IMG/VR virus record: IMGVR_UViG_3300028392_000036
Span: 78,902 to 142,901 of that record
DNA length: 64,000 bases
DNA from: a virus
Reading direction: 5' to 3' (one strand)
Positions 3,024 to 56,931 of the stretch are shown here, piece by piece (positions within the stretch are counted from its first letter, which is position 1; each line of letters starts with the position of its first letter). The position numbers and the translations under genes are program-made. A model generated the notes under the pieces. It was not told where the DNA came from and searched no databases. It saw nothing but the letters and a program-made list of their open reading frames with translations.

Positions 3024-3052
3024 TTGACCAATAAATGTCAAAGTGCTATAAT
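3024..3052 (+). promoter_or_regulatory. Sigma70-like promoter, TTGACCAATA class (leaderless)
   Basis: TTGACC (3024-3029), 17-nt spacer, TATAAT (3047-3052) with extended TGC. ATG of the next gene comes exactly 6 nt after the -10, so the transcript is predicted to be leaderless. Confidence 0.8.
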
Positions 3053-3058
3053 ACGGTT

Positions 3059-3478
3059 ATGAATACAAAACTTTACTTTGGCTACGGCATGAACACCAAT
3101 CTCAATGAGATGGCGTATCGGTGTCCTCGGGCACGAAGTCTTGGCCACGCACGACTATTAAATAGTGCGTTTCGCTTTGCTACTCACGCTGACGTGGTAG
3201 TGGTACCTGATTGCTATGTGGACGGAGTACTATGGTCTATCACTGAAGAATGTTTACAGAAACTGGATGCACTAGAAGGCTTCCCGCATTATTACAATCG
3301 CATTGAGATGGCTGTGGAACATGACGGTGAAATAAAAGATGCCATTGTTTACTTTATGAACCCTGGTCAGGCAGATGGCTTGCCCAGTCAAGGCTATTTT
3401 GATCTCCTGATGGAAGGCTACACCCAACATGGTGTGCCAACAGAACAATTACACAACGCATTGGAACTGTGGGTATGA
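3059..3478 (+). CDS. Gamma-glutamylcyclotransferase-like (GGCT/AIG2 family) protein
   Basis: A 139-residue protein. The N-terminal glycine-rich strand and loop (LYFGYGMNTN) and the later LDALEGFPHYYNR, which carries the expected catalytic Glu, are the hallmarks of the GGCT fold. Family members cleave gamma-glutamyl amines or form 5-oxoproline; the substrate cannot be told. A longer upstream start (3035) would lie inside the promoter, so I take the ATG at 3059, which coincides with the predicted transcription start. Its stop overlaps the next ATG (ATGA), opening an operon of exported proteins. Confidence 0.8.
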   Translation: MNTKLYFGYGMNTNLNEMAYRCPRARSLGHARLLNSAFRFATHADVVVVPDCYVDGVLWSITEECLQKLDALEGFPHYYNRIEMAVEHDGEIKDAIVYFMNPGQADGLPSQGYFDLLMEGYTQHGVPTEQLHNALELWV

Positions 3479-3982: not shown

Positions 3983-4539
3983 AACGACTCTTGCTTGCTG
4001 TTCTAATCCCTGTGCTGGCGCAGGCCGAGTGTGTGATGACTGATCGTGTGACAACCGCGGCCACAGTTCGAATTGAAGAACGCAGTGATGTTCGAAAGGA
4101 CATTGTGCCTAGCCCCACAGCAGGTTATCGCAGATGCCAGGTCAGTTACAAAGCCCGTATTGGTGCTCAATGGTACTTGGCTATGGGTGTGTATGATTGG
4201 CCAGGTAATGCCCCAGATGCAGAAGCCTGTGCAGTGGCCATGAGTCGAGCAGATGCTAGTGTACGAACACACGTGGCTCCAGTAGGAGTTCGTGGAGAAA
4301 GCACAATGGTCTGTACCGATCGTCCCAATATGGATACCCTGAGAAAAACAGCAGTGGGCACACAAGGACGCCTGCACCAATTTAGGCCACATCCAGATTA
4401 TCCCCGAGAGTTTTGGCACAATGGTACTCGGTGCCGTTGGTTCTTGGATACCGAATGGGCCCAAACCGATGTACAAACACGCCAAGGCATTATCTGCAGA
4501 TTGGAAACGGATCAGTGGGTAGTGGTTGACAAAATATAA
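3979..4539 (+). CDS. Exported protein, unknown function
   Basis: A 186-residue product starting at an ATGA overlap. The signal peptide MKRLLLAVLIPVLAQA ends in an AxA-type cleavage site; the mature protein has six Cys, suggesting a disulfide-stabilised periplasmic domain. No family recognised. The next promoter lies within its last codons. Confidence 0.7.
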   Translation: MKRLLLAVLIPVLAQAECVMTDRVTTAATVRIEERSDVRKDIVPSPTAGYRRCQVSYKARIGAQWYLAMGVYDWPGNAPDAEACAVAMSRADASVRTHVAPVGVRGESTMVCTDRPNMDTLRKTAVGTQGRLHQFRPHPDYPREFWHNGTRCRWFLDTEWAQTDVQTRQGIICRLETDQWVVVDKI

Positions 4540-4554
4540 TCAATCCTGTATAAT
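4526..4554 (+). promoter_or_regulatory. Sigma70-like promoter
   Basis: TTGACA (4526-4531), 17-nt spacer, TATAAT (4549-4554) preceded by TG. It is embedded across the stop codon of the upstream gene and drives the LPP20-like lipoprotein gene. Confidence 0.75.
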
Positions 4555-5436: not shown

Positions 5437-6018
5437 ATGATCATGCCAATAATTGAAACTACCCAAACTGAACAAACTCACACTCAAGCACTTGCTGACA
5501 CTGGCATGTATGTTTTTATGGGAGACGTGGATGATGAAAGTATCAAGCCAGTTGTGGAATGGATGCTGTATGAAAACTATGTGAGCAAGAAAAAGAAAAA
5601 AGAATTGTTACTCATGATTTGCTCCAATGGTGGAGACATGGGTGCGGCCTTTGCCCTAATTGATGTAATGATGAGCAGCCAAATTCCAGTAAAAACTGTG
5701 GGCCTGGGAACCATTGCATCAGCAGGCTTGTTGATCTTTATCTCTGGCACTCACGGACGACGAGTTCTTACACCTAATACTTCAATTCTAAGCCATCAGT
5801 TCTCCTGGTACAACGAAGGCAAAGCACATGAGTTGTTTGCTACCATGCGTGAGTTTGAACTCACACAGGCTAGAATGATTGCACACTATGAATTGTGTAC
5901 AGGCCTGGGCCGGGAAGAAATACGCACGAACTTGTTGCCACCACAAGACGTTTGGTTATCAGCATCAGAAGCCCTGGCTCTGGGCATCTGCGATGACATC
6001 AGTGTGGTCAAGAGTTAA
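5437..6018 (+). CDS. Divergent ClpP-family serine protease
   Basis: A 193-residue ClpP-fold protein with a complete triad by alignment: Ser95 in GTIASAG, His120 in ILSHQFSW and Asp171 in PQDVWLSA. The middle SNGGDMGAAF loop replaces the usual NSPGG. It is far from the canonical ClpP at 8914, so the phage carries two ClpP-type subunits, which could form a mixed ring or a different protease. The start could be ATG 5437 or 5443; no SD is evident and a terminator precedes it directly. Confidence 0.8.
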   Translation: MIMPIIETTQTEQTHTQALADTGMYVFMGDVDDESIKPVVEWMLYENYVSKKKKKELLLMICSNGGDMGAAFALIDVMMSSQIPVKTVGLGTIASAGLLIFISGTHGRRVLTPNTSILSHQFSWYNEGKAHELFATMREFELTQARMIAHYELCTGLGREEIRTNLLPPQDVWLSASEALALGICDDISVVKS

Positions 6019-12563: not shown

Positions 12564-12592
12564 TTGACCAGAAATGCCCATTTTGCTATAAT
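12564..12592 (+). promoter_or_regulatory. Sigma70-like promoter, TTGACCA class
   Basis: TTGACC (12564-12569), 17-nt spacer, TGC-TATAAT (12587-12592). The leader after it (ACATAGAGTAACAAAACAGGAG) is nearly the same as that after the promoter at 30630. Confidence 0.8.
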
Positions 12593-12624
12593 ATAGACAT
12601 AGAGTAACAAAACAGGAGTCCCAA

Positions 12625-12876
12625 ATGCGCCACGTAGCAGGATTTAGTAACAGCACCAAAATTCGTTTTATTGTCAACGGTTTTGGCATGTACGGCACCA
12701 TCAATGACATCTACACAAAAACAGCCACAGCGAGCCATGGTGCGGCTCTGCGATTGGCCATCCAAAAACTGGCTTACGATCGTCGCCACAGTAGTTTTAC
12801 TGGTGACGGCCGCCCAGTGGGTGTCGGCATCACCCACGAGGGACATGACGTTCAAATCACCTTGATGGCCAATTGA
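12625..12876 (+). CDS. Small conserved-type phage protein
   Basis: An 83-residue protein from ATG 12625 with AGGAG upstream. It contains RFIVNGFGMYGTINDIY and basic stretches (LAYDRRHSS), suggesting a small alpha/beta fold. It is transcribed from its own strong promoter as a monocistron, like other small genes driven by this class. No family is recognised. Confidence 0.65.
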   Translation: MRHVAGFSNSTKIRFIVNGFGMYGTINDIYTKTATASHGAALRLAIQKLAYDRRHSSFTGDGRPVGVGITHEGHDVQITLMAN

Positions 12877-12882
12877 TTTTGG

Positions 12883-12911
12883 TTGACCAATATTTCCCGA
12901 TCGGTTATAAT
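12883..12911 (+). promoter_or_regulatory. Sigma70-like promoter, TTGACCAATA class
   Basis: TTGACC (12883-12888), 17-nt spacer, TATAAT (12906-12911). Its leader (ACTTGTATAGAAACTAAAA) is repeated after the promoter at 30111. Confidence 0.8.
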
Positions 12912-12940
12912 ACTTGTATAGAAACTAAAAGGAGCCCAAA

Positions 12941-13225
12941 ATGAGTCACAGTTATTATGTCGTCAGCAAAGGTTCAGGTCTTATTGTCAACGACGGTCCT
13001 AACAAAACTCGTGCATACAAAACTTTCGGTGCCGCAATGGCCACCCGTACTCGTCTTTGCCGCAAGTCAGGTTGGAACATATCTGAACTTGCTATCATAG
13101 ATACCAAAAGTTACAAACCCCGGATGGTTACCCGCACTAACATAATGACTGGCCAGGAATATCAAGAGGACGTGAATACTCCTAGATCTTGCTCGCCTAG
13201 TTCAGAACTTTTTTGGACAATGTAA
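12941..13225 (+). CDS. Small basic phage protein
   Basis: A 94-residue protein with AGGAG upstream. It has a YYVVSKGSGLIV start, a basic middle and a polar tail. No function recognised. Its stop overlaps the next start (TAATG), beginning a compact operon to 14023. Confidence 0.65.
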   Translation: MSHSYYVVSKGSGLIVNDGPNKTRAYKTFGAAMATRTRLCRKSGWNISELAIIDTKSYKPRMVTRTNIMTGQEYQEDVNTPRSCSPSSELFWTM

Positions 13226-14024: not shown

Positions 14025-15314
14025 TTAGAAAACTTGTTTCCAGCCGTCAACAGTTTTAGTCCACACTTTGTTGACTGTGGTCCATGTGTTTGCGGAGGTT
14101 TTGATTTTGATACTTTGAACTGGACTCCAGGTATTGCTTGCTGTTTTGACTCGTAAACCTGCAGTTGTAACTGCTTGATAGGTTTGTACACCATTGGCTT
14201 GTGATCCAAGCCCGGTTACAGGATCCCAGCCTGCGGTAGCGGCGTATCCATCCGGAATTTCATACGCATTATTACCATAAATTATATCATAAAAAGAACT
14301 GTAATTAGAATAAAATATTTTGGCTAGTGAGTTAGGGGGTGGTCGACGACCCCCATTTTTTGATATAAATCTAGCCATCATACCAGCCATAATGGGCGTA
14401 GCCGCACTGGTTCCTGCTATTCCAGACACTACAGCACCATTAAGATAAAATGCATATGATTGATATGGAGCGGCTATGTCAGGAATTCCGCGCCTAGGTA
14501 GTGCGGTTACTGGGCCAGTTATCCCAGTTGAACTATTATATGTTTGATATTTTTTTCCTATTTGTTGAGAAGGTATATTGATAATAGAACTTATGCCACC
14601 TCCAGACGGTGCGGCAGCCACCTCCGGATTAATTCTTGCATTATACTGATTTACATTTAATATTGTTCCGCCTACTGCTATCACATTGGCATTTGATGAT
14701 GGGTAGTTTACACCTTCAACATTAGTAAATTTTTGTTTTGACCCAGCATCACCAGTTGAGTTAAACACAGATATTCCTTGGGCGACTGCATTGGCTATTG
14801 GTACTGAAAGAAAGTCGCCAAGTCCTCCGTAGTTCTCATTGACTGACCAACTTTGGGTTATTACATCGCACCCGTCTGCTATAGCCGCATTGTAAATATT
14901 TGCCCACCTGTTTGCGAACTCGGAGTATGTTGATGCACTCAGCGGAGTTCCTATATAGATGTTTATAGTAGCATTTGGTACCATACCTGCTATACAGAAA
15001 ATATCTAAAGTATTTTCTGTACTAGCACCATCATTTGGATCAAAATTATTAGTTGCACCATTAACTGATTTAAAATTAATAGTAGGCGCGGTAATTCCTA
15101 AATCGGCCATTGATTTGTTTATGTCACTTTGTAGAAAACCGCCACCTAGACTCAGTATGCCAATCTTAACCCCTGCACCAGTGCTTGTGGGTATGTTGTA
15201 TGCTGTAGCAATCTGAGAAGGAATAAAATTCCCTGGCGCCGGAAGACTAGTTACATCAGGATCATATGATCCAAACTCCGTAATGTCTGGCTTAGGTAAA
15301 AATTCTAATTCCAT
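14025..15314 (-). CDS. Sedolisin-like (S53) serine protease with fibre-like C-terminus
   Basis: A 429-residue protein. The sedolisin catalytic set is visible: Glu100 and Asp104 (STENTLD), oxyanion Asp189 (STGDAG) and Ser303 (GTSAATP), plus the calcium-site stretch GWDPVTGLG near residue 365. There is no prodomain and no signal peptide, unlike cellular sedolisins. The last 50 residues repeat a VKT.S.NTW pattern typical of fibre tips. It lies just downstream of a fibre gene on the same strand, so it may be a virion protease that digests host surface protein. Confidence 0.85.
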   Translation of the reverse strand: MELEFLPKPDITEFGSYDPDVTSLPAPGNFIPSQIATAYNIPTSTGAGVKIGILSLGGGFLQSDINKSMADLGITAPTINFKSVNGATNNFDPNDGASTENTLDIFCIAGMVPNATINIYIGTPLSASTYSEFANRWANIYNAAIADGCDVITQSWSVNENYGGLGDFLSVPIANAVAQGISVFNSTGDAGSKQKFTNVEGVNYPSSNANVIAVGGTILNVNQYNARINPEVAAAPSGGGISSIINIPSQQIGKKYQTYNSSTGITGPVTALPRRGIPDIAAPYQSYAFYLNGAVVSGIAGTSAATPIMAGMMARFISKNGGRRPPPNSLAKIFYSNYSSFYDIIYGNNAYEIPDGYAATAGWDPVTGLGSQANGVQTYQAVTTAGLRVKTASNTWSPVQSIKIKTSANTWTTVNKVWTKTVDGWKQVF

Positions 15315-19564: not shown

Positions 19565-19593
19565 TTGACCAATAATTCCCAATTTGCTATAAT
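19565..19593 (+). promoter_or_regulatory. Sigma70-like promoter, TTGACCAATA class (leaderless)
   Basis: TTGACC (19565-19570), 17-nt spacer, TGC-TATAAT (19588-19593). ATG 19600 comes 6 nt after the -10. Confidence 0.8.
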
Positions 19594-19599
19594 TAGGGC

Positions 19600-20733
19600 A
19601 TGAAACACATACTTGCACTGATTAGTACTTTGGTTTTAACTGCCTGCGGCGGCGGAGGTGGCGGAGGTGGCGGCGAGCCCAGTAGCGCCACAACAGTTAA
19701 GACGCAACCGTTTTCTTGTGTCGCTCCGCAATCGCAAAGCAATAGATATCGAGCGGCAACGTTTGATGTGCGTAGGGATGATATTGGCCGAACCGCAGAA
19801 GGTCACAATATCACCAGTTTTGCCGCAGTCAAACTCATGATAGATCGTGCCAAGTGTGTGGGTTTTGACACAGCAATTTTTGAAACCAATATCCCTATTG
19901 ATATTACAACGGGTCTGGTAAGAACCGATCAACCTATCCCGGTTGATTTTTGGCGATATGTTTCCTATGCCAAAAGTATAGGACTACGTGTGGCAGTACG
20001 GCCCATTCCTGTGAACTATGTTGATGACAACACTCTCACTGGTGATACAGTTGGGTTATCAGTTTCGCAGGCACTAAACAGTGTCAAAATCTTTGAACAA
20101 AATCTAGCGGTGCAGGCCCAAAATGCCGGCGTGGACATTTTCTACGTGGGGATTTTGAACTACGGAATTGATAATGCCACCTACAATACCGAATGGCAGG
20201 CAATTGTGGATGCAGTAAAATCTGTTTATACCGGCAAGTTAGCCTACACAACCTGTTTGCTTTGTACTGACACAGTTGTTTGGGGCAAAGTGGACATGGT
20301 AGGGATAGAAACCTCAACAGGTAATACTGTGGTCAGTGCCGCCGCTGTACCAAAAATACAAGCCCTGGCCCGCAGTTACAACAAACCTATTATGATAGAT
20401 AATGTGTACATTTATGCAACACCACCATCATATGCCAGTAACTCACTGTGGAACTCAGTAAACTCAGGTAGTGTCAGTAGTTTTCTACCAGATTATGTTG
20501 AACAGGCAAGAAAGTTCAACGAATTTTTTAGTTATATGACCTTGTTGAAATCTGATATTCAAGGCTTTGCGATCGGGCAATACATGCCATGGCTACAGAA
20601 TGCCAACATCCAATCACCGGTCACAAACATAGAAACTCAGTTCAAAATATTTGACACCATAGGCTTTTCGCTGTATAATAACATTCAAGCTCAAACTACC
20701 ATTCAATCATATTTGAGCAAACCGTGGAATTGA
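19600..20733 (+). CDS. Poly-Gly lipoprotein with TIM-barrel glycoside-hydrolase-like domain
   Basis: A 377-residue lipoprotein: signal with lipobox LTAC (Cys 16) followed by nine Gly, the flexible linker common in proteobacterial lipoproteins. The mature part (about 50-370) alternates strands and helices as in a TIM barrel, e.g. TAIFETNIPIDI, YAKSIGLRVAVRPIPVNY, VDIFYVGILNYG, DMVGIETSTG and NKPIMIDNVYIY. The order resembles glycoside hydrolase family 113-like domains, but I cannot assign catalytic acids. It probably sits in the outer membrane of the infected host. It is leaderless. Confidence 0.65.
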   Translation: MKHILALISTLVLTACGGGGGGGGGEPSSATTVKTQPFSCVAPQSQSNRYRAATFDVRRDDIGRTAEGHNITSFAAVKLMIDRAKCVGFDTAIFETNIPIDITTGLVRTDQPIPVDFWRYVSYAKSIGLRVAVRPIPVNYVDDNTLTGDTVGLSVSQALNSVKIFEQNLAVQAQNAGVDIFYVGILNYGIDNATYNTEWQAIVDAVKSVYTGKLAYTTCLLCTDTVVWGKVDMVGIETSTGNTVVSAAAVPKIQALARSYNKPIMIDNVYIYATPPSYASNSLWNSVNSGSVSSFLPDYVEQARKFNEFFSYMTLLKSDIQGFAIGQYMPWLQNANIQSPVTNIETQFKIFDTIGFSLYNNIQAQTTIQSYLSKPWN

Positions 20734-21493: not shown

Positions 21494-21871
21494 ATGCATA
21501 CCTTAATTGATTTTGTAAGTTTTGTAGTCAACAGTATACTTGTTGGCGCCCTGGTATGGTTTGTTTTTACCTGGGCAGTGAGTCGTTATTTGGAACGCCA
21601 AATTGGTTCGGTGGTACGAGACCTTGATCAGGAACGCCTGATCCCACTCACAATAGAGGTTGACTTAGATCAGTATTTCTGCTATAATAGCATTACCAAA
21701 GCATTTGTATGCCAAGGTCGCAATTTGAAGGAAATTGTGGAACGTTTTAAACAACGCTATCCGGACAAGTCTGCCGCTATCTATGATGGTGATGAGACTG
21801 CGGTGCGTACTCTTAAAAGTCAATTGAAAGAACTCGGTGAAAATTTCTCTAGTATCAGACGTGCATCTTGA
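21494..21871 (+). CDS. Membrane-anchored small protein
   Basis: A 125-residue protein with an N-terminal membrane helix (residues 5-32) and a soluble alpha/beta tail (EVDLDQYFCYNSITKAFVCQG, then EIVERFKQRYPDKSA). The layout is typical of small membrane proteins in T4-like phages. It overlaps the phosphoesterase gene by 35 bp. Confidence 0.65.
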   Translation: MHTLIDFVSFVVNSILVGALVWFVFTWAVSRYLERQIGSVVRDLDQERLIPLTIEVDLDQYFCYNSITKAFVCQGRNLKEIVERFKQRYPDKSAAIYDGDETAVRTLKSQLKELGENFSSIRRAS

Positions 21872-26578: not shown

Positions 26579-26607
26579 TTGACAAAAATACCCAATACCT
26601 GTATAAT
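26579..26607 (+). promoter_or_regulatory. Sigma70-like promoter
   Basis: TTGACA (26579-26584), 17-nt spacer, TG-TATAAT (26602-26607). Confidence 0.75.
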
Positions 26608-27353: not shown

Positions 27354-28288
27354 TTACAACAATTAATGGCGATATGTTAGAGGTAGCGGATCAAATTACA
27401 GACGGATCCATTGACCTACTGCTGACAGATCCACCTTACAACATCAGTGAGGACGGAGCCCAGCCAGTGTGGATTGACAAGGCCACTGGCAAAAACAAAA
27501 CAAACATACACAATCAAAAATTCAGCGAGAGTTTTGACCAGAACTGGGATGAAGTGGGACACGATGAGTTCTTGCAACAGATCAATGGCTGGGCTGAGGT
27601 TTGGTTCAAGAAAATCCGCAAAGGTGGAAGTTTTGCCATCTTTATCAGCGACCAGTATGTGAGCTATCTCTGGACTGCCATGGAGAACGCAGGATTTGAA
27701 CCCAAGCGTGTGTGGACCTGGAAGAAGCCAGCGGCAGTACCGTTCAACCGTCAGGTCAATCCTGTGAGTGCCTGTGAGTATGTGCTTTTTGGCATCAAGC
27801 CCAAGGGCCCTAGAACTTTTAATGCAAATGCCACCAAGGGTTCAATTGTGGAACGCTATGCATCAGCAGACAAGGTCAGTAGTATTGTTTACAAAATGGT
27901 CAAGGATGCCGACAGTCTCGATAACCTTGACAAGATCTTTGATGAGGCCAAGAAAGAAGCCAAACGTATGTTGGCTGATCGCAAGACTGAAGAAGGTTTA
28001 ATACAATGTGTGATTCCAAACACCATCACCTACAGTGGTGGTCTGGGCAAGGGCAAGATACATCCTACACAAAAGCCCACTGAGATCTTGGAGTACTTTA
28101 TTGAGTTGTTGAGCAACCCAGGCAACACAGTACTAGATACATTTGCAGGCAGTGGCTCCACTGGTATCGCGTGTGAGAACCGAAATAGAAACTGTATTTT
28201 GATTGAACGTGATCCGGGTATGTTTGCAAAGATGCAAGCTCGAGTTGATGAAAAAACCGCACAATCCAACATAGTTGAGTTCATTTGA
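27350..28288 (+). CDS. Site-specific DNA methyltransferase (beta-type N4/N6)
   Basis: A 312-residue methyltransferase. Motif order is TDPPY (motif IV, residue 26-30) first, then IHPTQKP and the SAM-binding DTFAGSGSTGIACENR near the C-terminus, as in beta-class N6-adenine or N4-cytosine enzymes. The middle region (WVRP-type target region, about 110-210) would give sequence specificity. It may protect phage DNA from host restriction or regulate transcription. The operon it closes starts at the promoter 26579. The next promoter overlaps its stop codon. Confidence 0.9.
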   Translation: MITTINGDMLEVADQITDGSIDLLLTDPPYNISEDGAQPVWIDKATGKNKTNIHNQKFSESFDQNWDEVGHDEFLQQINGWAEVWFKKIRKGGSFAIFISDQYVSYLWTAMENAGFEPKRVWTWKKPAAVPFNRQVNPVSACEYVLFGIKPKGPRTFNANATKGSIVERYASADKVSSIVYKMVKDADSLDNLDKIFDEAKKEAKRMLADRKTEEGLIQCVIPNTITYSGGLGKGKIHPTQKPTEILEYFIELLSNPGNTVLDTFAGSGSTGIACENRNRNCILIERDPGMFAKMQARVDEKTAQSNIVEFI

Positions 28289-28313
28289 CCTAATTCAATA
28301 AATTTGTTATAAT
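28285..28313 (+). promoter_or_regulatory. Sigma70-like promoter, TTGACC class
   Basis: TTGACC (28285-28290, overlapping the methyltransferase stop), 17-nt spacer, TATAAT (28308-28313). An ATG lies 6 nt after the -10. Confidence 0.75.
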
Positions 28314-28319
28314 ACACTT

Positions 28320-28346
28320 ATGTTTAATTTTTGGAGTACCGTATGA
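28320..28346 (+). CDS. Leaderless 8-residue leader ORF
   Basis: ATG at the predicted transcription start encodes MFNFWSTV and stops in an ATGA overlap with the next gene. The layout suggests translational coupling; it also carries the SD of the next gene. Confidence 0.45.
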   Translation: MFNFWSTV

Positions 28347-29476
28347 CCAAGGCTGTGACATCTAACCTAGTAGTAAATCCCTTTGCGCCACCACCTAAGA
28401 TTGTGCAAACCCCGTTGGTGTCAACTGGGAATATCTATGATCCATTGGTTCCCCGTGCAATGGCCATTGCCAATGAAGATGTGGTTCAAGAGGCTATAGA
28501 TGCTTTGCGTACCCGACTTCAAGGAACTCCATACCGTCAAGAACATTTTGGACGGCTTGAAGAGTTAGAATCCAATTTGATCGATATCAATATTGATATT
28601 CAACGTCTATTAGAAACGCCACATATTGCAAAAAATATTATTGAGCTGTTTGATCCTCGAATCATGCAACCACTCAATGTTATTTTTATTAAAGAAACCG
28701 GACGCTACAGTGCCTGGGAGGGCCAACAAAGTGGCACAGCCTTTGCATTGATGATGCATTTTGGATTGATTACTCCTGACACCTTAATTCAATGTAAAGT
28801 GGTAGATGATGATCTTGTGGTACCTGGCTCAGACTTGGCTGGTGAGGCTGTGGGCAATTACGGATTTCGTTGTATCAATTACAAAGGGCGCAAGGAACCT
28901 GATTTATTTTGGATCTTTAGAAGTATGGTCAATGGTGTTCGGCTCTATAAAAGTACACTGACGGAAGATTTACAGGCCAACGAAATTCAAAATATGTTGC
29001 AAACTCACAGTATGTTTTCAGCACCCGGACTTGAAGCTCGCGGGCAAAAAGCCAAACCGGGTATGGTCACTCACATCAGCAGTATGTTAAACATAGCCGG
29101 ACACGGTACCGAGTCAGAAAAATTTGATATAACCAAAGCAGATTTAGATTGGGTGCTAGGTTGGCACAATCGCTACTACGCCAGCGAAAAGGGTGTGAAC
29201 GGTGGTTATTTAATTACATTCGGACGTTTTGCCGCATTGTGTCGTGAGCAAGATATAGCAATTACCAAAGAACACGAGCTTGAGTTTTTCCAGCATATGA
29301 AACGCTACGGATCGCCAAAAGCATTCCACGATGATTGCAAGCAACGATACAAAAAAGTATATGGTGGATGGTCAGACGCTTGCCTATTACCAATCTGGCA
29401 GAAAGATTATATGAAACGTGGCGGCACCTTGCCATTACCAACTATCAAGAATTACAATGAATACAAATCTCTCTGA
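28343..29476 (+). CDS. ParB/Srx-fold-like protein
   Basis: A 377-residue protein from ATG 28343. The stretch NVIFIKETGRYSAWEGQQSGTAF (about residues 110-135) resembles the ParB/sulfiredoxin-type core (strand, then G.y.v.eGQh). No CTP-binding or HTH motif is certain. A C-terminal region (YMKRGGTLPLPTIKN) is basic. It lies next to a methyltransferase and a GIY-YIG-like protein, so a DNA-processing role is plausible; confidence in the family is modest. Confidence 0.6.
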   Translation: MTKAVTSNLVVNPFAPPPKIVQTPLVSTGNIYDPLVPRAMAIANEDVVQEAIDALRTRLQGTPYRQEHFGRLEELESNLIDINIDIQRLLETPHIAKNIIELFDPRIMQPLNVIFIKETGRYSAWEGQQSGTAFALMMHFGLITPDTLIQCKVVDDDLVVPGSDLAGEAVGNYGFRCINYKGRKEPDLFWIFRSMVNGVRLYKSTLTEDLQANEIQNMLQTHSMFSAPGLEARGQKAKPGMVTHISSMLNIAGHGTESEKFDITKADLDWVLGWHNRYYASEKGVNGGYLITFGRFAALCREQDIAITKEHELEFFQHMKRYGSPKAFHDDCKQRYKKVYGGWSDACLLPIWQKDYMKRGGTLPLPTIKNYNEYKSL

Positions 29477-30110: not shown

Positions 30111-30139
30111 TTGACCGAATATTCTCTTTTTGCTATAAT
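30111..30139 (+). promoter_or_regulatory. Sigma70-like promoter, TTGACC class
   Basis: TTGACC (30111-30116), 17-nt spacer, TGC-TATAAT (30134-30139). Leader ACTTGTATAGAAACTAAAA matches that after the promoter at 12883. Confidence 0.8.
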
Positions 30140-30169
30140 ACTTGTATAGAAACTAAAAAGGGGTTTGAA

Positions 30170-30640
30170 ATGGGTACACGTAGTCGCATCGCAGTAATGC
30201 ACGGAGAAGTTTGCAAATCAGTTTACTGTCATTGGGATGGCTATCTTGAGCATAACGGTGCCATTTTGTTGGAACATTATGACTCCTCCAAAGCCAATCA
30301 ATTGGTTGCACTAGGTGACTTGTCAAGCCTGCGCCCTGAGATTGGTATCAAGCATCCTTTCAGTTGTTTGGATCCTGAGGCTGGTAGCGACTACGAACAA
30401 CGCTATGGCAACATGTGTACCTTTTACGATCGCGATCGCGGTGAGACAGAATGCACTTGGTCGGTAGATCACACGTTTGAAGACTTCCTGGACCGTGCCA
30501 AAGGTTGTGCCGCTGAGTTTTACTATGTGATGAAAGATGGTACATGGTATGTAGGCGACACTTACGGCTCAACGGCATTAAGTAATAAGTTAACACTTCT
30601 TGCAGAGGCCTTGCAGGCTGTAGAAACGGTTGACCAATAA
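30170..30640 (+). CDS. Conserved-type phage protein
   Basis: A 156-residue protein starting MGTRSRIAVMHGEVCKSVYC; the pattern (MGTRSRI, CHWDGY, VALGDLSSLRP) is familiar from T4-like phages of aquatic bacteria. AAGGGG precedes the ATG. The product has four Cys and an alpha/beta core. The next promoter is embedded in its final codons. Function unknown. Confidence 0.7.
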   Translation: MGTRSRIAVMHGEVCKSVYCHWDGYLEHNGAILLEHYDSSKANQLVALGDLSSLRPEIGIKHPFSCLDPEAGSDYEQRYGNMCTFYDRDRGETECTWSVDHTFEDFLDRAKGCAAEFYYVMKDGTWYVGDTYGSTALSNKLTLLAEALQAVETVDQ

Positions 30641-30658
30641 TCGCCAAACTGCTATAAT
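30630..30658 (+). promoter_or_regulatory. Sigma70-like promoter, TTGACCAATA class
   Basis: TTGACC (30630-30635, inside the last codons of the preceding gene), 17-nt spacer, TGC-TATAAT (30653-30658). The leader contains TAACAAAACAGGAG, shared with the 12564 promoter. Confidence 0.8.
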
Positions 30659-30689
30659 ATACACATAGATTAACAAAACAGGAGCCAGT

Positions 30690-31466
30690 ATGCCAGGATT
30701 TGTAGACGTATCAAATATGACAGCCCGTGAAATTCGCATGATGGACCATGCGGCTGACGCTGACGAATCATATCAGCCACGCCAAACTTGGAAACCCAAG
30801 GCCCGGCCTGCAAGTGTTGCTCACTCTGTGGACAATGTTTGGGGCGCGGCAGTGGCGTCACAACGCATCAATGGCTCTTATGTTAAAGAGACTACTTATA
30901 TCTTGGACACGGACCAGAACGTCAGTGTGGTAGACAAACGTCGCAACCGCGATATCATTGCAGACATTCTCGCCAACCCTGCTCAACTCACTGTGGAAGA
31001 TATTGCACAGGGCCAGGAGTGCCGCAAGTTCCTGCAAAACGACATTACCTTCCGTGCGCTCAAAGGTCGACTCACAGAGTTTGACAGTGCCATAAGCAAG
31101 GTGATTGCTGTGACTGAAGAGTTTGATACTGTGAAACACAAATACGAATTGGCTGTGGTTGCGTGTCTGCCACAAAGCCATACTCGTGCCTTGGAGCGTC
31201 AGACCGTGCAAGATCGAGTGCGCCAAACATCAGGCGAGTTCGTAGGTAATCCAGGCGACAAGGTTCAACTAGACGTTGAGATTATCAAATCAAATTTCAG
31301 TCAGCAGTGGAACACTTGGTATTCCACTGCCGTTACTCAAGACAATAGTGCTGTGTTTTTTGCCTATCGCCAGCAATTGTCTGTGGGTTCCAAACACACT
31401 ATCGCAGGAACCGTCAAGGCTCACAGAGACGGCTCCACTCAACTCAACCGTGTGAGCATTATCTAA
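30690..31466 (+). CDS. OB-fold-like putative nucleic-acid-binding protein
   Basis: A 258-residue protein. The C-terminal 75 residues (GDKVQLDVEIIKSNF, then NSAVFFAYRQQLSVGS and ...STQLNRVSII) read as an OB-fold five-strand pattern, as in single-strand DNA-binding domains. The N-terminal half is helical and contains FRALKGRLTEFDSAISKVI, a stretch similar to conserved T4-like phage proteins of unknown role. AGGAG precedes the ATG. A single-strand-binding or recombination role would fit but is inferred. Confidence 0.65.
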   Translation: MPGFVDVSNMTAREIRMMDHAADADESYQPRQTWKPKARPASVAHSVDNVWGAAVASQRINGSYVKETTYILDTDQNVSVVDKRRNRDIIADILANPAQLTVEDIAQGQECRKFLQNDITFRALKGRLTEFDSAISKVIAVTEEFDTVKHKYELAVVACLPQSHTRALERQTVQDRVRQTSGEFVGNPGDKVQLDVEIIKSNFSQQWNTWYSTAVTQDNSAVFFAYRQQLSVGSKHTIAGTVKAHRDGSTQLNRVSII

Positions 31467-31640: not shown

Positions 31641-31669
31641 TTGACCAATATACTATCTTTTGCTATAAT
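31641..31669 (+). promoter_or_regulatory. Sigma70-like promoter, TTGACCAATA class
   Basis: TTGACC (31641-31646), 17-nt spacer, TGC-TATAAT (31664-31669). An ATG lies 6 nt after the -10. Confidence 0.8.
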
Positions 31670-31675
31670 ATTGAT

Positions 31676-31723
31676 ATGTTGAGCAGTAATGCAAAACATT
31701 TTTTAAACTTTAGGCAACTTTGA
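31676..31723 (+). CDS. Leaderless 15-residue leader ORF
   Basis: ATG at the predicted transcription start encodes MLSSNAKHFLNFRQL; the stop lies 14 nt before the next start, at its SD-like AAAGG. May couple or regulate translation. Confidence 0.4.
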   Translation: MLSSNAKHFLNFRQL

Positions 31724-31737
31724 AAGGCAACTTTATT

Positions 31738-32100
31738 ATGTCAGCAGACAAAATGTTTACAGTAGCAGGTACCGCTACAAATCCCGATGGTACTACTAAG
31801 GCTCGCTTTGCGAACGACTTGGTAGCCCGCATCAAGATCCTTAACAAGGCTAAATGCACCAACATCAACCTGGTAGAATTGCCTCGTGCAATGACCAAGT
31901 TAGAAGCCCTCCAGTTCTTGACTGAGAATGGCATCACCGACGGCGACGCTGGCTATGCTATAGCCAACAAGCTGGCAGAGAAGACCAAGGTCGCCAAGAA
32001 AGGCGAAGTCAAGGTTGCTGGCAAAGGCGTCAAAGCCACAGCACCTAAGACCGCCAAGGCTACCGTGACTGCCGAGGCAGTTGCAAGCACTAACTCCTAA
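31738..32100 (+). CDS. Small basic T4-like phage protein
   Basis: A 120-residue protein starting MSADKMFTVAGTATNPDG, with FANDLVARIKILNKAKCTNINLVEL and a Lys/Ala/Thr-rich, basic C-terminal tail (KGVKATAPKTAKATVTA). The N-terminal domain resembles one conserved in T4-like cyanophages; the tail suggests DNA binding. AAAGG precedes the ATG; a TTG start 18 nt upstream is less likely. A terminator follows. Confidence 0.7.
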   Translation: MSADKMFTVAGTATNPDGTTKARFANDLVARIKILNKAKCTNINLVELPRAMTKLEALQFLTENGITDGDAGYAIANKLAEKTKVAKKGEVKVAGKGVKATAPKTAKATVTAEAVASTNS

Positions 32101-35964: not shown

Positions 35965-35993
35965 TTGACCACAAACTCTGAATATGCTATAAT
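35965..35993 (+). promoter_or_regulatory. Sigma70-like promoter, TTGACC class (leaderless)
   Basis: TTGACC (35965-35970), 17-nt spacer, TGC-TATAAT (35988-35993); a degenerate half palindrome GTATTAC (35958-35964) abuts the -35. ATG 36000 follows the -10 by 6 nt. Confidence 0.8.
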
Positions 35994-35999
35994 ATAGGC

Positions 36000-36239
36000 A
36001 TGTTTAAGACAGCCAAACACACTTACCGAACGCTCAAGCAAAGTGATCCTAACTTTAGTTTCAGCCCTGACGGCATTACTCTGGTGCCACGTGCCGGTTT
36101 TGAGATTTCGTCTGGGTGCCCCGGCAACTATGCAGACATCATTCGTGAGTGTATCAACCACGGTTGGCTCAAACCGGTTGCCCATATGCGTGACGAAGAA
36201 CTAACTTGGGAATTATTGAAATATGAAACTCTGCCCTAA
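36000..36239 (+). CDS. Small leaderless phage protein
   Basis: A 79-residue protein starting exactly at the predicted transcription start. It includes DGITLVPRAGFEISSGCPGNYADIIRECINHGW. No function recognised. It heads an operon running to about 37059. Confidence 0.65.
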   Translation: MFKTAKHTYRTLKQSDPNFSFSPDGITLVPRAGFEISSGCPGNYADIIRECINHGWLKPVAHMRDEELTWELLKYETLP

Positions 36240-45160: not shown

Positions 45161-45189
45161 TTGACAACCCAGTTGTTCTAGTGTAAACT
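45161..45189 (+). promoter_or_regulatory. Sigma70-like promoter (leaderless)
   Basis: TTGACA (45161-45166), 17-nt spacer, TAAACT (45184-45189); ATG 45196 follows by 6 nt. Confidence 0.65.
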
Positions 45190-45195
45190 AACAAC

Positions 45196-45438
45196 ATGGA
45201 ACATCCTTTAATCGGCGACATAAATGACTTGACCATTGATGAACTCAGTGCCCGGGTCAGCGAACTTTCCAACAAACTCAATATAGCCGCAGGAACGGGT
45301 AATGCCCATTTATGCGATCAAATTAGAATGGCTCTGGAAACTTTTCGAAACAAGTACCAAGATAAATTAAGAGATTCTTACAAGAAACAAGAAGAAATCA
45401 ACCACATCAACTTTGACGACAAAATCAATATCAAATGA
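45196..45438 (+). CDS. Small T4-like phage protein
   Basis: An 80-residue helical protein (MEHPLIGDINDLTIDELSAR; ...IRMALETFRNKYQDKLRDSY). Pattern seen in T4-like cyanophages. Predicted leaderless. Ends in an ATGA overlap. Confidence 0.7.
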   Translation: MEHPLIGDINDLTIDELSARVSELSNKLNIAAGTGNAHLCDQIRMALETFRNKYQDKLRDSYKKQEEINHINFDDKINIK

Positions 45439-56408: not shown

Positions 56409-56931
56409 GGGTCTGCAATATAAAGACCTAGAGGGCATGATGAAGCCCACGCTTCACGTGGACGAATTTGCGGCCAAAATGGGTGATGACGATGATATCA
56501 TTGTGCTATCATTCTTTGTGCGTGATTTAACAGCCGCCAAAGACCTAGTGGGATGGTTTGAAAAGGGCTATGACTTTGTGTTGGATGCCGATCGTAGCCC
56601 AGGTGAAATCAAGCCCAGCCGTTATCTAGTGTACTTAGAACTGCGTCGCCGTAGATCAGCACCACAGCACGTACAAACGCTGTTGGATGATTTATCGACA
56701 CTGACAGAATTTGCCCCAGAAGAATGGCGATTCAAATACGATGGTCGAGACCATGAATGGTCTGAAAAGACCTTTAGTGAACTGGTGCCATTAACTCCGG
56801 ATTCTTATAGAGCCACGCACGAAGATGACCTAAATGATGTGCGCACAGCGGCGGGTATTGCACCCAAAAAGATTCACGAAAAACTGCCGGATGATGTTAA
56901 ATCATTGCAGAGCATGGCCGGGATACGATAA
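56341..56931 (+). CDS. T4-like phage protein of unknown function
   Basis: A 196-residue protein. The stretch MMKPTLHVDEFAAKMGDDDDIIVL near residues 33-56 is characteristic of these phages. It overlaps the upstream gene by 68 bp and the downstream gene by TAATG-like coupling. No enzyme motif. Confidence 0.7.
   Translation: MNKPTMLNNPFNSNQPLPALLSEGLQYKDLEGMMKPTLHVDEFAAKMGDDDDIIVLSFFVRDLTAAKDLVGWFEKGYDFVLDADRSPGEIKPSRYLVYLELRRRRSAPQHVQTLLDDLSTLTEFAPEEWRFKYDGRDHEWSEKTFSELVPLTPDSYRATHEDDLNDVRTAAGIAPKKIHEKLPDDVKSLQSMAGIR

Follow-up and report, generated by a model that had tools for sequence, protein, structure and literature searches.

Genomic setting and a recurrent promoter motif

The window analyzed here is a stretch of 64,000 nt that comprises bases 78902–142901 of a 142,901-base virus record (GC content 44%). 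The phage carries genes for ribonucleotide reductase, a DnaB-type helicase, primase, ligase and UvdE, and its terminase shares ~52% identity with the terminase of Pseudomonas phage PA5oct and 51% with that of Agrobacterium phage Atu_ph07, which makes the phage a remote member of the large T4-like assemblage. For the first 25 kb of the window, no close match was found among deposited phages. Other genes include a subtilase-family protease on the minus strand of the window (14025–15314) and, elsewhere in the contig, a phosphate-transporter subunit (contig positions 73597–74601).

The motif TTGACC-N17-TATAAT-N6-AT occurs nine times in the window, exclusively on the plus strand (at 3024, 12564, 12883, 19565, 28285, 30111, 30630, 31641 and 35965), against an expectation of 0, with no match in 100 dinucleotide shuffles. 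Every coordinate at which an earlier note on this DNA had reported the motif, with its 17-nt spacing, carries it. The complete 142.9-kb contig, searched as the note had proposed and with one mismatch tolerated, contains 16 matches, all in the forward orientation, compared with 0 in a backward-read control; five further motif sites lie outside the window, at contig positions 21689, 21992, 22284, 56528 and 56725. Two related promoters on the plus strand of the window have TTGACA as the −35 hexamer: one of the form TTGACA-17-TATAAT-6-AT (4526–4554), with a Shine–Dalgarno (SD)-led gene downstream, and one with the same geometry as the class and ending in ATA (26579–26607). The base that follows the AT is G at the 3024, 19565, 28285, 31641 and 35965 promoters and A at those at 12564, 12883, 30111 and 30630. 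TATAAT is preceded by TGC in seven of the nine sites, the exceptions being GGT (12883) and TGT (28285). The CAATA extension of the −35 is present at 3024, 12883, 19565, 30630 and 31641 but missing from the remaining four sites. Both of these longer words are thus less strictly conserved than had been claimed.

Among 343 non-redundant promoters selected on the −35 and −10 hexamers only, +1 is A in 72% and +2 is T in 72%, and −1 is mostly C or T. Given the −35, the 17-nt spacer, the extended −10 and the canonical distance to +1, the motif is a sigma70/extended −10 promoter class, and the proposal of a distinct sigma70-like class with a fixed 6-nt gap is supported. The gap itself reads as the ordinary sigma70 start-site distance combined with an initiator preference and would be no signal on its own. 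An UP element upstream of the −35 is not evident in the 343 promoters, where A or T is only weakly preferred between about −44 and −38.

Of 17 large viral contigs searched, most carry the class, on a single strand within each contig and in up to about 20 or more copies in contigs of 290–360 kb; the large relatives gave zero control matches. PA5oct, Atu_ph07 and Phosso essentially lack it, and a 65-base query spanning promoter and leader produced no full-length match in 50,697 phage records. The class is common to many large, uncultured, mostly lake bacteriophages. We sought the host through the nearest DNA match, which led to no close isolate, and through motif matches in bacterial genomes, which are scattered across many phyla; the window holds no tRNA that could serve as a clue. 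The contig also encodes a ribosomal protein bS21 (contig positions 65631–65789, outside the window), which is found in 9 of the 17 related contigs. Phages with bS21 have been described with 31–34% GC and predicted Bacteroidetes hosts (PMC9723584); equating the present phage with them was considered and dropped, given its 44% GC and sigma70-type promoters.

Genes predicted to be leaderless

All promoters and genes of the window described below lie on the plus strand. Four genes of the window are predicted to begin at the first transcribed base, as the earlier note had proposed, and none of them has an SD sequence. The promoter at 3024–3052, with a TGC extended −10, serves a gamma-glutamyl cyclotransferase gene (3059–3478) whose predicted +1 is the A of its ATG and whose product matches Pfam GGACT and PHROG 2520 starting at its N-terminus. 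Another candidate start farther upstream, the ATG at 3035, falls within the spacer of this promoter. Relatives of the cyclotransferase (L013–L019) keep the order promoter, 6 nt, ATG despite N-termini of differing length. In another relative (L024, near 5957–6001), the arrangement is TATAAT-6-ATTATG, which could mean a leader of 3 nt or initiation at ATT.

The promoter at 19565–19593 serves a GH113-like lipoprotein-type gene (19600–20733; Pfam GH113, E 5e-9), for which a frame check found no in-frame upstream start and a search for homologues to compare found none. Its product contains a poly-glycine stretch. The promoter at 35965–35993 serves a gene for a 79-aa protein (36000–36239), and the arrangement of a promoter followed after 5 or 6 nt by ATG recurs in relatives among L029–L045 and L085, so that this family resembles the cyclotransferase in its behavior. 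The fourth gene encodes an 80-aa protein (45196–45438), with a promoter at a gap of 5–6 nt in 15 of 26 non-redundant relatives. Its leaderless start had been claimed together with membership in the class; the start is supported, but the promoter (TTGACA-17-TAAACT-6-ATG, 45161–45189) is a different, weaker sigma70 sequence outside the CAATA class.

Genes with Shine–Dalgarno leaders and a hairpin leader

At the other class promoters, the gene begins farther downstream. The promoter at 12564–12592 (+1 = ATA at 12599) precedes a gene at 12625–12876 with a 26-nt leader and AGGAG; that at 12883–12911 (ATA at 12918) precedes a gene at 12941–13225 with a 23-nt leader and AAGGAG; that at 30111–30139, located directly after a terminator-like hairpin (ATA at 30146), precedes a gene of the phrog_1987 family at 30170–30640 with a 24-nt leader and AAGGGG; and that at 30630–30658 (ATA at 30665) precedes a gene at 30690–31466 with a 25-nt leader and AGGAG. 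The 12625, 12941 and 30690 genes were called from the sequence and the open reading frame. At the promoter at 28285–28313, +1 is an ATG (28320) that opens 8 codons only, and the gene that the promoter serves (28343–29476, called from the sequence) starts behind GGAG after a 23-nt leader.

The promoter at 31641–31669 is of a third type. Here, a hairpin (ATGTT...AACAT, 31676–31699) starts at +1 and has the ATG at 31676 as its 5' arm, and the gene (MSADKMFTVAGTATN..., 31738–32100) begins behind AAAGG. The stem has 5 pairs only in the window itself; in relatives it is better paired and changes on both sides (ATGTTG/CAACAT, ATGCTG/CAGCAT, ATGCAG/CTGCAT), with the same gene following. A micropeptide starting at 31676 was considered and rejected because what the variants preserve is the pairing, not a protein, and because the same SD-led gene lies downstream across the family. 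The leader of ~60 nt (31676–31737) is conserved, with its covarying 5' hairpin and GGCAAC repeated around the SD, and might act as a stabiliser or in autoregulation. Hairpin leaders of this kind were identified at 12 related loci. The gene product (FTVAGTATN...) has no Pfam or PHROG match.

The geometry described earlier, ATG or ATA 6 nt past the −10, is retained, but the notion that every +1 ATG opens a gene fails at 28320 and 31676, and the genes behind the ATA triplets are SD-led. Across the promoter set, perfect hairpins of at least 6 pairs begin at offset 5 after the −10 in 7 sites and at offset 6 in 9 sites, compared with 3 or fewer at each other offset up to 29. Such clustering is expected of an RNA 5' end and lends independent support to the assigned +1.

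Two start modes of one promoter class

The position of ATG relative to the −10 is sharply restricted: among the 343 promoters, 70 have an ATG at offset 6, 19 at offset 5, 3 at offset 7 and at most 6 at each offset from 8 to 15. In the complete contig, eight promoters lie 6 nt from an in-frame ATG and none at gaps of 2–4 or 7–10 nt. Frames of at least 30 codons are opened by 51 of the 70 offset-6 ATGs, and in 43 of the 70 such a frame has no SD-led start within 70 nt; when +1 is ATA, only 1 of 130 sites opens a frame of this kind without an SD, whereas 124 of the 130 have an SD-led start downstream. The contrast (43/70 vs 1/130) gives a Fisher P of 6e-24, a value that is too small because related phages are not independent, and some of the led calls depend on a loose SD pattern. 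The leaders of the led genes peak at 23–25 nt (mode 24). The 59 leaderless predictions at offsets 5–7 fall into 22 protein families. Early codons contain 48% A in leaderless genes and 37% in led genes; a CA-rich downstream enhancer was considered and rejected, given that ACA is not enriched (25/63 vs 90/202, p = 0.56) and A-richness alone is.

One could argue that the AT at +1/+2 is a mere start preference of the polymerase, so that the ATGs occur by chance and translation really begins farther downstream. This is what happens at 28320 and 31676, and an SD-led start is located near 24 of the 70 ATGs. As a general explanation, it is very unlikely, in view of the 43 sites that open a long frame with no such start and of the homologous cyclotransferase, UvdE and primase proteins that begin at exactly that ATG. 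Instead, the pattern strongly supports the view that a single promoter class may permit a gene to start either at the first transcribed base or ~24 bases later behind a ribosome-binding site.

Conservation of the ATG position among orthologues

Further leaderless candidates of the contig are genes for primase (contig position 30810), UvdE (72254) and the helicase (23699). For UvdE, the start was defined as the nearest ATG before the conserved motif, with promoter information left unused; among 57 diverged regions upstream of the gene, 39 contain a promoter at a gap of 5–6 nt (0.01 per gap in the background), and the position of the ATG is fixed even though the N-termini vary in length (MTTPQIGFCCK, MTTRIGFCCK, MTTPITPRIGFCCK). 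In the 45196 family, with starts likewise picked independently of the promoter, 12 of 23 members have a promoter at a gap of 5–6 nt. SD-led starts are found in 10 of 26 relatives of this gene, in several of which the promoter lies 16–18 nt upstream with AAGGAG or GAGGAG in between. The best promoter match in the primase family is at gap 6 in all six members, five of them above threshold. A core SD before the start was found in 0 of 6 primase and 0 of 39 helicase genes. The helicase signal is weaker, a promoter being close to the ATG in only ~13 of 39 relatives, mostly at gaps of 6–8 nt. Taken together, in the UvdE, cyclotransferase, 45196 and primase families, the ATG stays 5–7 nt past the −10 while the upstream DNA and the length of the N-terminus change. 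An additional family of ~110 aa (RKKRTDRTHIVY...YIG), found at nine loci in the leaderless arrangement, looks like a putative small GIY-YIG nuclease.

These genes might normally be translated from longer read-through transcripts, the nearby promoter being secondary. Some homologues of the 36000 gene and of the helicase indeed belong to operons without a nearby promoter, and in the records checked for a cultured relative with a leaderless UvdE (NCTB, pEa_SNUABM_5 and JA13), the gene lies close behind another one in an operon-like arrangement. We nevertheless consider read-through highly improbable as the normal mode: a gap of 5–7 nt would hardly be conserved over dozens of diverged orthologues unless it were used, and terminator-like hairpins precede the −35 at 31 of 342 sites (~9%, under a strict test) compared with 4.0 in controls, an excess that suggests compact terminator–promoter units. 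Seventeen of these stem-loops end 5–9 nt ahead of the −35. Terminator-like hairpins a few bases before the −35 are located upstream of the 30111 promoter, of the promoter at contig position 56528 and of many promoters in relatives; a recurrent AAGTAATACTT/AGTACTAC element lies farther upstream of the hairpin and −35.

The two-mode pattern and the conservation of the ATG among orthologues were observed directly, and leaderless mRNAs at 3059, 19600, 36000 and 45196 are therefore well supported as predictions, with the arrangement kept in relatives of 3059, 36000 and 45196. For genome annotation, this yields a rule for these phages: an in-frame ATG 5–7 nt past TATAAT and lacking an SD is to be taken as the start codon. 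Start calls are corrected accordingly, for example, to 3059 rather than 3035.

Promoter recognition and proposed mechanism

Outside the hexamers, the spacer positions from −29 to −16 are informative at about 0.2–0.9 bit per position, where AATAAT, CCC and TT are favored; at −37/−36, the preference is for GG or AC. The earlier note had suggested a phage factor in view of CAATA. Given this conservation, a phage-encoded factor that binds the spacer and the CAATA extension might read or boost the class, and such a factor would be compatible with leaderless translation. We regard its involvement as unlikely. The complete −35, TGn and −10 already suffice, these phages also have leaderless genes whose promoters lack the extension, and common descent or optimisation of a host-type promoter would produce the same conservation. 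Moreover, T4 early promoters carry extra consensus and yet are read by the host polymerase (PMC2988021). No sigma region 2 was detected in the 17 contigs and no sigma region 4 in the present contig. The leaderless property is independent of the CAATA class: the UvdE, helicase, primase and 45196 genes use other sigma70 promoters.

We therefore favor, as highly probable, a scheme in which the strong promoters would be read by the main sigma factor of the host, as judged from their canonical consensus. RNA polymerase would start at the conserved A seven bases past the −10, in the context of a pyrimidine at −1, A at +1 and T at +2. The base at +3 and the sequence that follows would then choose the start mode. 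With G at +3 and an open frame, the first three transcribed bases would be the start codon and the ribosome would engage the leaderless message; otherwise, an A-rich leader, usually of 23–25 nt and carrying (A)AAGGAGCC, would recruit the ribosome by SD pairing. The leader of ~60 nt that opens with a hairpin at +1 would be a third form. Expression probably takes place early in infection. That the choice between leaderless and SD-led starts is itself a regulated output of the class, with leaderless genes (including UvdE, primase and helicase) favored during a phase of infection in which ribosomes or their factors have changed, perhaps with phage bS21 involved, seems to us quite improbable.

Relation to known systems

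The cI message transcribed from PRM of phage lambda is the classic leaderless phage mRNA, in which a sigma70 promoter places the AUG at +1. The genes described here share this layout, with AUG at the predicted +1, but comprise several unrelated families per genome as opposed to a single regulated gene. T4-type phages reportedly carry promoter/stem-loop cassettes (Arbiol et al. 2010). In the present phages, a stem-loop adjoins the promoter between small genes at some sites, only 31 of 342 under the strict stem-loop test.

Lambda has been named as the first leaderless case, and in bacterial leaderless genes the Pribnow box lies ~12 bp before the start codon and orthologues switch mode (Zheng et al. 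2011, PMC3160421); leaderless genes are also known in Deinococcus, with a −10 motif (PMC12340547), and in Mycobacterium (PMC4633059). The genes reported here resemble them in having the −10 located 6 nt before the ATG, no SD and orthologues that change from one start mode to the other, but differ in belonging to large phages and in having a full −35 and an extended −10, with SD-led genes sharing the promoter class. T4 early promoters are strong host-type promoters with near-perfect −35/TGn/−10 and additional consensus, recognized by the host polymerase (PMC2988021); the present class is similarly close to consensus with additional conserved positions but has TTGACC as the −35, a different spacer consensus, no UP element that is evident and frequent leaderless starts. 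Phage transcripts are often leaderless according to the study of phage AR9, the leaders of which are themselves at least 26 nt long (PMC5312081). Both ingredients are thus known, and their joint use as a general style of a phage lineage appears not to have been described, judging from searches of an open-access library. The usual examples of leaderless phage messages are isolated ones, lambda cI among them. In many large uncultured phages, by comparison, leaderless and SD-led genes stand side by side behind one promoter class, with orthologues in both states, and form a natural comparative set for the choice of the leaderless mode.

Finally, we noticed that the same architecture is present in unrelated bacterial genomes. 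In a Gastranaerophilales-like metagenome-assembled genome, over a dozen genes for pseudopilins (MKNYSSRKGFTLAEVLIT...) all lie 6 nt behind a TTGACC-17-TATAAT promoter sequence; these repeats, at 15 loci, are leaderless-looking units.
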